Origin: Pseudanabaena sp. ABRG5-3
GTDB taxonomy: Bacteria > Cyanobacteriota > Cyanobacteriia > Pseudanabaenales > Pseudanabaenaceae
DNA: 64,000 nt
Direction: 5' to 3'
Assembly: GCF_003967015.1 (NCBI RefSeq)
Contig: NZ_AP017560.1
Location: forward strand, 4,338,048-4,402,047
Part shown: piece by piece, positions 882 through 4,520 of the stretch
Numbering within the stretch: the first letter of the stretch is position 1
How the letters are laid out: every line of letters starts with the position of its first letter
Program-made: the position numbers and the translations under genes
The notes under the pieces: generated by a model
What the model was told of the DNA's origin: nothing
The model's database searches: none
What the model saw: only the letters and a program-made list of their open reading frames with translations

Positions 882-890
882 GAGCAACTA

Positions 891-922
891 ATAGAAAAGC
901 CGCCCTAGGGCGGCTTTTCTAT
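891..922 (+). terminator. Rho-independent terminator after ycf54
   Basis: A perfect 32-base palindrome: GAAAAGCCGCCC paired with GGGCGGCTTTTC plus two further A/T pairs on each side, ending in TTTTCTAT. It begins 10 bases after the ycf54 stop and ends 20 bases before the next gene. Being symmetrical it could end transcription in both directions. Confidence 0.85.
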
Positions 923-941
923 TGAGGATATGTGCTAAGGT

Positions 942-1883
942 GTGACCTTGAAATTGACGATTATCCCTAATATTGTGTCTAGCCTTTTTTGCAGAGATCC
1001 TTTGATTAGATTGCCTTCCCCATATGGGTATGCCAATTTTGGGTTTAAGGCGATCGCGTCAAATGGTCAGAGGTATAAATATGGCGATCGCAATTTATAT
1101 ACTGTCATCCCTAGATCCAAGCCGCAAAATGTAGAATCACAGCAGTTAGACTACAGGTTTGAACTAATTCAAAGTTTTTCCATCCAAAAGGCAGGTAATG
1201 CGATCGCTGAATGTGAAGATATTTGGCGTTATGCTCAAGGCGATCGGCAAATTTCCATCGCCCTGTCCGACGGCGCAACGGAATCTTCCTTTGCCAAGGA
1301 ATGGGCAAAGGAACTAGTAACTGCTTTTGTAAATCTTGATCACGGCTGTATACCCGAACAAAATCTCCAAAGTTGGCTCCAACCTGTACAACAAACTTGG
1401 CAGCAATGGTTAGGTAAGCAAAATTTGACTTGGTTTGCCAAACGCAAAGCAGGAGCAGGGGCTTTTGCAACTTTTTTGGGTTTAGAAATTTTGCCAGATT
1501 TGAGTTGGCAGGCTTTAGCAACGGGTGATTCTTGCTTATTTATAGTCCGTCAGCAGAAATCATGCCTCCAGTTTCCAATCCAAAACAGCGATGAATTTAA
1601 TCATCGTCCAAAATTGATTGGCACATATACCGAAGTTGCCAATATTCGGATGAATCAAGCCAATGGGGTTGCGGAATTGGGGGATCGCTTTTATCTCACT
1701 ACCGATGCGATCGCCTGTTGGATTTTCAAACAGATCGAAGCGAGTCAAGATCCTTGGGTAAAATTAGGTGAGATTAACTCACAAGATGAGTTTTCTCAAT
1801 GGGTGAATGAATTGCGCGATCGCCATGAAATCGCCAATGACGATACAACCTTGCTATGCCTAGAAATTCGTCGTGAGTCATGA
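942..1883 (+). CDS. PP2C-type protein phosphatase
   Basis: 313 residues. PP2C motifs are in order: ECEDIW (about 90-95, the family's N/E-D-A/W position), SDGATES (109-115) with metal-binding Asp-Gly, GAGAFATF (171-178), GDS (195-197) and ANDDTTLL (298-305) with the C-terminal metal-binding Asp. These enzymes remove phosphate from Ser/Thr with Mn2+ or Mg2+. GTG start; the first ~70 residues precede the recognisable domain and the true start is uncertain (no in-frame ATG before the catalytic motifs). It overlaps the following kinase-like gene by 4 bases (ATGA), so the two are translationally coupled and probably act on a common target. Confidence 0.8.
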   Translation: MTLKLTIIPNIVSSLFCRDPLIRLPSPYGYANFGFKAIASNGQRYKYGDRNLYTVIPRSKPQNVESQQLDYRFELIQSFSIQKAGNAIAECEDIWRYAQGDRQISIALSDGATESSFAKEWAKELVTAFVNLDHGCIPEQNLQSWLQPVQQTWQQWLGKQNLTWFAKRKAGAGAFATFLGLEILPDLSWQALATGDSCLFIVRQQKSCLQFPIQNSDEFNHRPKLIGTYTEVANIRMNQANGVAELGDRFYLTTDAIACWIFKQIEASQDPWVKLGEINSQDEFSQWVNELRDRHEIANDDTTLLCLEIRRES

Positions 1884-3814
1884 CCGATATCCAAACTTGG
1901 CCGTTAAATATTGACTTCACGATTGCGGTACAGAATCCGCAGCTTTGCTTTGCCGATCCCGAACTCAAGCAAGCTAGTACATCCAAGAATTCACGGGGTA
2001 GGGTTTTACTATGGTCAGGTAATTTTGCCACGGTGTATAAGCTTACCAAGGGCGATCGCTCTTGGGCAGTGCGGTGCTTTACGCGCATACCTCAAGCCGA
2101 TGTACAGGAACGCTATCAGTTAATTAGTGAATATCTCAGTCAACATCAGATTCCCTATTTAGTAGATTTTGAATTTTTGGCTCAGGGAATTTTGGTCAAG
2201 GGGCAATGGTATCCAATTCTCAAAATGGATTGGGTCGAGGGAACAGAGCTAGATCGCTATATTGGCGAGTATATTGACGATTCACAGGTATTACTGCGTT
2301 TAGAGCGACAGTTGCAACAACTCCAAAAAGATTTGCAACGGGTAGGTATTGCCCACGGGGATTTGCAGCATGGCAATATCATGGTGGACGATCATGGGGA
2401 ATTGAAACTGGTTGACTATGACGGGATGTATGTACCTGCGTTGCAGGGTTCACCGCCCCTTGAGGTCGGTCATCCCAACTATCAGCCTCCTAAGCGCTCA
2501 ACCAAAGATTTTGGAGATCGCCTTGATGAATTTTCCTTCGCTGTAATTTCTCTATCGCTGCGTGCCTTGGCAACTGAGCCACATCTTTGGGAAGCCTTTC
2601 ATGAGGACAATAAAAACTTAATTTTCCGTCAAAACGATTTTGAAGAGCCTGATGCCTCACCTGTATTTCAGGCGATCGCCAATATTCCCGATGATGAAAC
2701 TCGCGAGCTGTGCGATCGCTTAATCCGTCGCTGTCATGGCAAAGACCAAGAAGAACATGTTGCGCCCGAAGAGCCAAAATTCAAATTAGTTAAATCCCAT
2801 AAATTATTTTTACTAAGTGGATTAATCGGCATCGTTTTACTGGCTATTATCGGCAGTATTTTTGTATTTTTCAGAAAAAATCAAGCGCAATCTCAAATTA
2901 ACAAAACTCCTGAACCGATAGTTACAAATTTGCCTAAACCAACGATTAGCCAACCTCCTAATATTGCTATTACACCTCCCAAATTAACCCCCATCACTGT
3001 TGCCTCTTTACTAGAGCAATATGCAAAGGGACAGCGTGATTTTCAATATGTACAGCTAACGGGACTTCAGGGCGATCGCCTACAGGGTCAAAATTTAAAG
3101 GATATTAATCTGCGTGGTTCAGTCATCGAAGGGGGCAATTTGCGCCAAGTAATTCTCAAAAACGCCAACTTAAATAACACTAGATTTGTAAAAGTCGATC
3201 TCCGCAATGCTGATCTCAGTAATGCGACTCTTATCGATGCAAATCTAGCATTTTCTAATCTTTCAGGGGCAAATCTGACTCAGGCTAGTTTATTACGCGC
3301 AAACTTAGGGCAAGCAAAGCTAGGTACAGCAATTTTGTACAAAGCGGAATTAATGAAAAGTAATTTCAGTGAATCTGATCTGAACTCCGCCAATCTTGAT
3401 AGCGCCAATTTAGTGCTAGCCAATCTGCGTAAAACTAATCTCACTAAGGCAAATCTCCATGAGAGCAATTTGTCGGCAGCCAATCTCAGTGAGGCAATCT
3501 TAGAGGGATCTGATTTATCCTCCTCGGATTTGCGATCGGCGGAACTCCACCAAACAATTTTTACCAATGCTAATCTTAGTGCTGCCAACCTCACCGCCGC
3601 AAATCTCGTCTTAGTTGATTTGTCAGGGGCAAACCTGAATGGGGCAAATTTTCGGAATGCGATCGTGGAGAATATTGGCAGTATTGAATCCGCCGATTTT
3701 ACAAACGTTGTCAATCTTTCCAGTAATGTTCGCAAATATTTCTGCTCATCGGCTTCTGGCAATATTACCGAGACGGGCTTAACTACAAAATCAACTCTTA
3801 ACTGTTTGCCATAG
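1880..3814 (+). CDS. Kinase-like protein with one membrane helix and pentapeptide repeats
   Basis: 644 residues in three parts. Residues ~40-290 are protein-kinase-like: a glycine-poor loop WSGNFATVY, catalytic-loop HGDLQHGN (159-166) with Asp161, and VDYDG (178-182) where DFG is expected. The subdomain II lysine position reads WAVRCF, with Arg65 in place of Lys. A single membrane helix follows at about 309-331. The rest (~395-610) is a run of A(N/D)LxxA-type pentapeptide repeats, which fold as a right-handed beta helix and would lie on the other side of the membrane. It overlaps the PP2C gene by 4 bases. Activity as a kinase is inferred and the Arg65/DYD changes leave doubt. Confidence 0.8.
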   Translation: MTDIQTWPLNIDFTIAVQNPQLCFADPELKQASTSKNSRGRVLLWSGNFATVYKLTKGDRSWAVRCFTRIPQADVQERYQLISEYLSQHQIPYLVDFEFLAQGILVKGQWYPILKMDWVEGTELDRYIGEYIDDSQVLLRLERQLQQLQKDLQRVGIAHGDLQHGNIMVDDHGELKLVDYDGMYVPALQGSPPLEVGHPNYQPPKRSTKDFGDRLDEFSFAVISLSLRALATEPHLWEAFHEDNKNLIFRQNDFEEPDASPVFQAIANIPDDETRELCDRLIRRCHGKDQEEHVAPEEPKFKLVKSHKLFLLSGLIGIVLLAIIGSIFVFFRKNQAQSQINKTPEPIVTNLPKPTISQPPNIAITPPKLTPITVASLLEQYAKGQRDFQYVQLTGLQGDRLQGQNLKDINLRGSVIEGGNLRQVILKNANLNNTRFVKVDLRNADLSNATLIDANLAFSNLSGANLTQASLLRANLGQAKLGTAILYKAELMKSNFSESDLNSANLDSANLVLANLRKTNLTKANLHESNLSAANLSEAILEGSDLSSSDLRSAELHQTIFTNANLSAANLTAANLVLVDLSGANLNGANFRNAIVENIGSIESADFTNVVNLSSNVRKYFCSSASGNITETGLTTKSTLNCLP

Positions 3815-3944: not shown

Positions 3945-3993
3945 GAACCAATTTTTTGTGGTTCAGCTTTGCTGAACCACAAAAAATTGGTTC
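3945..3993. repeat. Long perfect intergenic hairpin
   Basis: Arms of 22 bases (starting GAACCAATTTTTTG) pair perfectly around CTTTG; the inner core AGC-TTT-GCT resembles other hairpins of the window. It lies between the convergent kinase-like and GNAT genes, so it may end both transcripts. The 3814-4014 gap holds only this and the preceding hairpin. Confidence 0.75.
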
Positions 3994-4013: not shown

Positions 4014-4520
4014 TTACACTTCATTAAATTCGGAGCGATATTTTACGGTTCCACTACAGCCATTCAATGCGCCATCTTGCAGTTCTAAAACCATAAATAC
4101 ATCATCTGGAACTGAATATTCGCATGTCAGTCCCTTTCTTTTTGACGAGATAAAGCCGAAACGTGCATAGAATTCGGGATATCCCAACACCATAACAGCT
4201 TTGTATCCTAAATAAGCACATTGCCCTAAACCATGTCGAATCAATAGTGAGCCGATGCCCTGTCGTTGATATTGAGGCAATACGGCTAATGGGGCTAGTC
4301 CAAGCATCCTTAAACTCTCAGGATATGCTCCGTCAACAATAACTGGACTAAAGAAAACATGCCCCACAATTTGCTGAGATTCTATAGCTACAAAGGAAAA
4401 TGTATCTGCAATGCCACGTAATTGATTAACTAAATGTGCTTCATTTGCACGCCCAAAAGCTGCGGTATTAACTACCTGAATAGCATTTAAATCTTCTGGT
4501 TGCTCAGCTCGAATTTCCAT
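4014..4520 (-). CDS. GNAT-family N-acetyltransferase
   Basis: 168 residues, single GNAT domain. The acetyl-CoA-binding motif A is visible as LAPLAVLPQYQRQGIGSLLIRHGL (about 75-98) with the Q-x-x-G-I-G pyrophosphate loop. A YARFGF motif (about 117-122) matches the YhbS-like branch. The acceptor substrate cannot be told from sequence. It stands alone between the kinase-like gene and grpE, transcribed the opposite way. Confidence 0.85.
   Translation of the reverse strand: MEIRAEQPEDLNAIQVVNTAAFGRANEAHLVNQLRGIADTFSFVAIESQQIVGHVFFSPVIVDGAYPESLRMLGLAPLAVLPQYQRQGIGSLLIRHGLGQCAYLGYKAVMVLGYPEFYARFGFISSKRKGLTCEYSVPDDVFMVLELQDGALNGCSGTVKYRSEFNEV

Follow-up and report, generated by a model that had tools for sequence, protein, structure and literature searches.

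A probable domesticated, membrane-tethered TerY-P kinase and phosphatase pair in Pseudanabaena

Two overlapping genes of Pseudanabaena sp. ABRG5-3 code for a PP2C-type phosphatase and a DYD-type kinase. The pair probably represents the phosphatase and the kinase of a TerY-P module that lost its operon arrangement in a single cyanobacterial family and is now fixed as a core chromosomal signalling system. A domesticated, membrane-tethered TerY-P switch is the most likely description.

TerY-P denotes a triad of the TerY VWA protein, a PP2C phosphatase, and a kinase (Anantharaman 2012 and Gao 2020, as cited in PMC11090510, PMC4978471, and PMC7699616). A metal-linked phosphorylation switch has been proposed for it. 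Anti-phage activity has been reported for modules of the OB type, and TerY-P protects from T7-like phages (PMC7699616, PMC11090510). These modules have so far been known as operons, in anti-phage and stress-response settings.

The novelty lies in a combination: the TerY-P genes are scattered but co-retained, the kinase has a pentapeptide tail, and the system has core status. With genes that are scattered yet co-retained, genetics can probe the partnership free of polar effects. In addition, the pair includes a member of the DYD kinases, a family whose catalytic status is doubtful, in a role that is fixed, conserved, and probably one of housekeeping. A literature search found no paper on this gene in Pseudanabaena.

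The gene pair

The window is the whole stretch of 64,000 nucleotides that was analysed. The neighbouring genes ycf54, grpE, dnaK, and accD, as well as named relatives, likewise assign it to Pseudanabaena. The pair and the elements around it are located in it as follows.

890..923, no strand assigned: GC-rich perfect hairpin with a 15-pair stem, terminator-like, between ycf54 and the PP2C gene
942..1883, plus strand: PP2C-type Ser/Thr phosphatase, 313 amino acids, GTG start (Pfam PP2C_2, PADLOC PDLC02222)
1880..3814, plus strand: protein consisting of DYD-type kinase, transmembrane helix, and pentapeptide repeats, 644 amino acids, ATG start (open reading frame, Pfam, PADLOC, AlphaFold2)
1880..2749, plus strand: kinase domain, residues 1-290, with Arg65 (beta3), HGDLQHGN 159-166, DYD 179-181, and alphaF Asp216 (PADLOC, AlphaFold2, Foldseek, VIA-align)
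2804..2878, plus strand: single transmembrane helix, residues 309-333 (hydropathy, AlphaFold2 helix)
3050..3667, plus strand: 42 unbroken pentapeptide repeats, residues 391-596, predicted extracytoplasmic (Pfam Pentapeptide 7.6e-39, model)
3743..3805, plus strand: C-terminal cap with the invariant cysteine pair C622/C642
3946..3992, plus strand: terminator-like hairpin 3' of the kinase gene

The original prediction described a phosphatase and a kinase sharing four bases, and the reading frames 942-1883 and 1880-3814 do overlap by ATGA. Of the 16 named genus genomes with a PP2C reading frame ahead of the kinase, 12 retain this overlap; in three of the remaining four, the two are spaced by 3-10 bases. 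Because the overlap is retained in relatives and the dN/dS of the kinase is 0.03-0.06, the layout is not due to chance.

The terminator-like hairpins at 890-923 and 3946-3992 flank the pair. The first of these sets it apart from ycf54, and relatives carry similar hairpins at the same place. A search for RNA elements gave no Rfam match near the pair, and a promoter scan gave matches no more numerous than in shuffles. A gene for a GNAT acetyltransferase (window 4014-4520), which only part of the genus has, lies between the pair and grpE.

The phosphatase

The first gene product matches Pfam PP2C_2 (2e-05) and the PADLOC profile for TerY-P-type PP2C, PDLC02222 (7.6e-34). The latter profile found no match in any of 14 control genomes. 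The acidic metal-site residues of PP2C (D93, D110-G111, G195-D196, D255, and N299-D300-D301) are kept in 66-69 of 69 homologues.

The true start of this gene may be the GTG at 975 (codon 12) instead of that at 942, since three relatives have no open frame 5' of that point. Several relatives conserve the stretch around the annotated start (ATGTGCTAAGGTGTGACCTTG; window 942-975), which may have a regulatory role. In Pseudanabaena UBA1465 (L076:4592-6001), the PP2C frame stops about 470 bases short of the kinase; a broken gene or an assembly error may be the cause.

The kinase domain

The product of 1880-3814 matches Pfam Pkinase (3e-10) and Pfam APH (1.8e-07). Residues 13-272 match STK_OB, the PADLOC profile for TerY-P-type STK (PDLC02223, 1.2e-77), and this match stops at position 269 of the 562 in the profile. 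Canonical Hanks-type kinases (PknB/PASTA) have a VAIK lysine and DFG; here Arg65 and DYD stand in their place, and NCBIfam PknB_PASTA reaches 20.4 bits against a cut-off of 450. Structure prediction, a check proposed along with the original prediction, gives a kinase domain with a pLDDT of 94.8 in the AlphaFold2 model, for which both Foldseek and VIA-align (Z 16.5, 3.1 A over 227 residues) indicate a protein-kinase fold.

Conservation was followed in 84 homologous kinases from cyanobacteria, planctomycetes, chloroflexi, acidobacteria, firmicutes, myxobacteria, and others. They were fetched by the patterns HGDLQHGN and (Y/F)P(I/V)LKM(D/E/A)W, so that neither Arg65 nor DYD was selected for. DYD (D179-Y180-D181) is present in all 84. 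The same is true of H159, D161, and N166, although the conservation of HGDLQHGN and of the second pattern is partly built in because both were used for the fetch. Position 65 is Arg in 67 kinases and Lys in 17. The helix at 75-89 has no conserved Glu, while R78 and Y79 occur in 83 of the 84. The motifs are also invariant in 29 copies taken from the genus and from sister genera.

Arg65, an HGDLxxGN loop, and DYD had been read from the sequence originally, and H159-G160-D161...N166 and D179-Y180-D181 are found where they were placed. The accompanying concern, that homologues with Lys and DFG might be the rule and this copy decayed, fails, since DYD is universal among the 84 and Arg65 is the majority state. 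Decay is likewise ruled out by this invariance together with the dN/dS of 0.03-0.06.

A 2025 review describes a DYD family of bacterial Ser/Thr kinases with a beta3 Arg, DYD, and no C-helix Glu (PMC12599244). In an AlphaFold3 model of this family, the Arg forms a salt bridge with the second Asp of DYD (PMC12599244). Judging by the aligned kinases, the Arg65/DYD combination is a family rule that matches this published signature, and not a product of decay.

A kinase of this kind might nevertheless be a pseudokinase, which binds nucleotide or nothing and serves as a scaffold bringing PP2C or TerY to the membrane. The beta3 Arg and the lack of a conserved C-helix Glu would fit such a role, and a pseudokinase annotation applies to about 60% of the DYD family (PMC12599244). 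However, Asp161, Asn166, and the metal-binding Asp179 are invariant in 84 of 84 kinases, and the only substitute for Arg65 is Lys (17 of 84), by which the positive charge is retained. The kinase is also the most constrained part of the pair (dN/dS 0.03-0.06), and the adjoining PP2C is retained with all its metal-site residues. A pseudokinase scaffold is therefore rather unlikely.

It is very improbable that the domain phosphorylates a small molecule instead of proteins, as APH or choline kinases do. HGDL..GN is similar to the catalytic loop of those enzymes, and Pfam APH does match. Pkinase outscores APH, however, and the best fold matches are protein kinases. Furthermore, Asp216-x-Phe218 of alphaF is found in all 84 kinases, with an APE-like YQxPxR stretch ahead of it, and a cognate PP2C is retained. 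The preferred reading is that of a Ser/Thr kinase that is active or at least depends on nucleotide, and in which ATP would be bound with the help of a salt bridge between Arg65 of beta3 and Asp181 of DYD, replacing the Lys-Glu pair.

Some related proteins contain two tandem DYD kinase domains each (L133:3878-6001, L148:3152-5083, and L151:1699-3633). They belong to genomes of the Obscuribacterales/Melainabacteria type, and some have no TerY or PP2C nearby.

Membrane helix and pentapeptide tail

The sole hydrophobic segment of the kinase protein peaks at residues 311-329 (Kyte-Doolittle 2.7). In the full-length AlphaFold2 model, a helix occupies residues 309-333 and a repeat solenoid begins at about 391. 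The solenoid corresponds to 42 consecutive pentapeptides with a hydrophobic centre (391-596) and is modelled with a pLDDT of about 90-98; its nearest solved structures are pentapeptide proteins. A single membrane helix leading to a long pentapeptide-repeat domain had been predicted, and both are borne out.

The repeat domain probably lies beyond the membrane, outside the cytosol, as would follow from a topology of a cytosolic kinase and one helix. The charges that flank the helix are nearly even, with 4 basic residues on one side and 3 on the other. C622 and C642 are the only cysteines past the helix. They were considered as proof of export but dropped, since another pentapeptide protein encoded in this genome (L006) ends in the same cap but shows no evident signal sequence.

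A survey for the fused architecture, also proposed with the original prediction, found the combination of kinase, membrane helix, and pentapeptide tail only in the copies of this cyanobacterial family (L076-L094); the other fetched kinases all lack it. Many of them have a hydrophobic segment C-terminal to the kinase domain and a different tail, such as a WD40 domain (L048). By this comparison of tails, the relatives are commonly attached to the membrane, and the repeats are a replacement specific to this lineage. One kinase-repeat reading frame (L025:751-2433, G022) codes for only 560 amino acids and is missing the last repeats and the Cys cap.

TerY-P membership and the remote TerY gene

Their profile matches show that the phosphatase and the kinase belong to the component families of TerY-P. 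The order TerY-PP2C-kinase is found in two sister genera (G028 and G032), in a cyanobacterium of a different family (G044), and in the second copy that the Pseudanabaena genome G005 carries. The same order is seen in most non-Pseudanabaena loci among the 80 loci fetched. A search of plasmids found only two triads, both distant. The second triad of G005 (L048:5203-9020) is complete, and its kinase ends in a WD40 propeller.

The three genes are contiguous in G028 and G032, but not in Pseudanabaena. Here an orthologous TerY gene is located at G000:C1:3206302-3207189, 1.13 Mb from the pair in a genome of 5.66 Mb. Its product matches PADLOC PDLC02224 (4.3e-95) and is 79% identical to TerY of the G032 triad. 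Because of this distance, the pair is a derivative of TerY-P and not a TerY-P operon. At the C-terminus of the kinase, a membrane helix and pentapeptide repeats take the place of a zinc ribbon or OB fold. Since the tail is neither of these, a function in common with anti-phage TerY-P cannot be assumed. The idea of a membrane signalling pair holds in so far as a membrane kinase and a phosphatase are linked and intact, but it is incomplete, as the pair makes up two thirds of TerY-P and TerY is elsewhere.

In its own neighbourhood (G000:C1:3201000-3213000, L163), TerY is arranged divergently to genes that encode a GAF-adenylate cyclase, another VWA protein, and a protein with a double zinc ribbon and an FHA domain. 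The same set adjoins TerY in genera g1 and g7. As parts of the system, these neighbours amount to a hint only, because the VWA gene is widespread in genomes without TerY.

One could also propose that the phosphatase and the kinase are a standalone two-gene pair, and that TerY has moved to another job in the VWA, zinc-ribbon-FHA, and cyclase cluster. TerY is indeed 1.13 Mb distant, beside genes found in many cyanobacteria without it. On the other hand, TerY is present in 25 of 26 genus genomes (the exception, G009, is a fragmented assembly of 750 contigs) and is absent jointly with the pair in three other genera, which makes this proposal unlikely.

Distribution and selection

Since TerY is unlinked, evidence for its cooperation with the pair is provided by the phylogenetic profile. 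TerY, PP2C, and kinase are all present in five of the family's eight genera (g1, g4, g6, g7, and g8) and all absent from the other three (g2, g3, and g5). They are contiguous in g4 and g8, divided into the pair and a remote TerY in g1, and found on three different contigs in g6 and g7, as in genomes G030 and G031. The g6 and g7 genomes are drafts; however, TerY of G431 lies well within a 40 kb contig that has neither of the other two genes. As the three proteins are present all or none despite the broken linkage, they appear to stay together for function rather than by linkage.

The family's kinase copies form one clade and so do its TerY copies, with the second G005 triad outside. The eight genera are not independent points. 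In an AccD tree, meant to count losses, the genera that lack the system fall at two or more positions, and support is weak.

In the genus, the kinase is found in 26 of 26 genomes, and the pair is surrounded by ycf54 and grpE-dnaK-accD in all genomes in which the flanks are covered. Relative to five relatives, dN/dS is 0.03-0.06 for the kinase, 0.10-0.17 for the repeats, 0.13-0.23 for PP2C, and, where measurable, 0.37-0.53 for the linker. The pair is under strong purifying selection, and its role is apparently a housekeeping one.

This bears on the possibility that the system is still an anti-phage system like OB-type TerY-P, now chromosomally fixed. Both proteins match PADLOC defence models, and TerY-P has the reported activity against T7-like phages. 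However, presence in every genus genome at one locus among core genes, without patchiness within the genus, is a core, single-locus distribution unlike that of a patchy defence island. There are no adjoining defence genes, no nuclease or DNA-processing partners are near the pair, and the operon is scattered. A retained defence function is thus quite improbable, and a core signalling role is preferred.

Proposed mechanism

In the scheme that homology makes likeliest, the kinase and PP2C would act against each other on TerY, or on a TerY-bound target, at the membrane. The kinase would face the cytosol from the cytoplasmic or the thylakoid membrane, and PP2C would undo its phosphorylation. TerY, a protein with a VWA metal site, may be the shared adaptor or substrate that both enzymes switch. 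The pentapeptide solenoid, which would lie outside the cytosol and occupies the place of the zinc ribbon, OB fold, or WD40 tail of other TerY-P kinases, might anchor the kinase or connect it with some component of the periplasm or lumen. The zinc-ribbon-FHA protein beside TerY is an attractive candidate for a reader of the phosphorylation switch, although there is only a hint of this.

A more speculative and less likely extension is that a defence or stress module was recruited to the core regulation of a photosynthetic lineage. The long solenoid of the transmembrane DYD kinase would then, in line with the sensor role suggested by the original prediction, sense something in the periplasm or thylakoid lumen. 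Together with PP2C and the unlinked TerY, the kinase would drive a switch read by the zinc-ribbon-FHA protein.

Comparison with known systems

The system shares with TerY-P the homologous PP2C, kinase, and TerY, as well as the order of PP2C and kinase. In contrast to TerY-P, its TerY is unlinked, its kinase ends in a membrane helix and pentapeptides rather than a zinc ribbon or OB fold, and the pair resides at a fixed core locus instead of a mobile or defence setting.

Neighbouring genes for a VWA protein, a PP2C, and a kinase are also found in E. coli (YegL, PphC (YegK), and YegI). These are very remote, with an E-value of 0.0019 for the kinase profile, 0.0016 for the TerY profile, and no match for PP2C. 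Unlike the Pseudanabaena kinase, YegI keeps the Lys and has no DYD.

The kinase resembles the DYD family in its beta3 Arg in place of Lys, DYD in place of DFG, the absent C-helix Glu, and its membrane association (PMC12599244). The description of that family covers actinobacteria and firmicutes, whereas the kinase presented here is cyanobacterial and has a pentapeptide tail.

Finally, SpkB (slr1697) and other cyanobacterial kinases have C-terminal pentapeptide repeats (PMC2176072), as does the Pseudanabaena protein. SpkB, however, is of an ordinary type, cyanobacterial STK family II. Because the Pseudanabaena protein belongs to the DYD kinases and has a membrane helix separating kinase and repeats, its fusion probably arose independently of the SpkB type.
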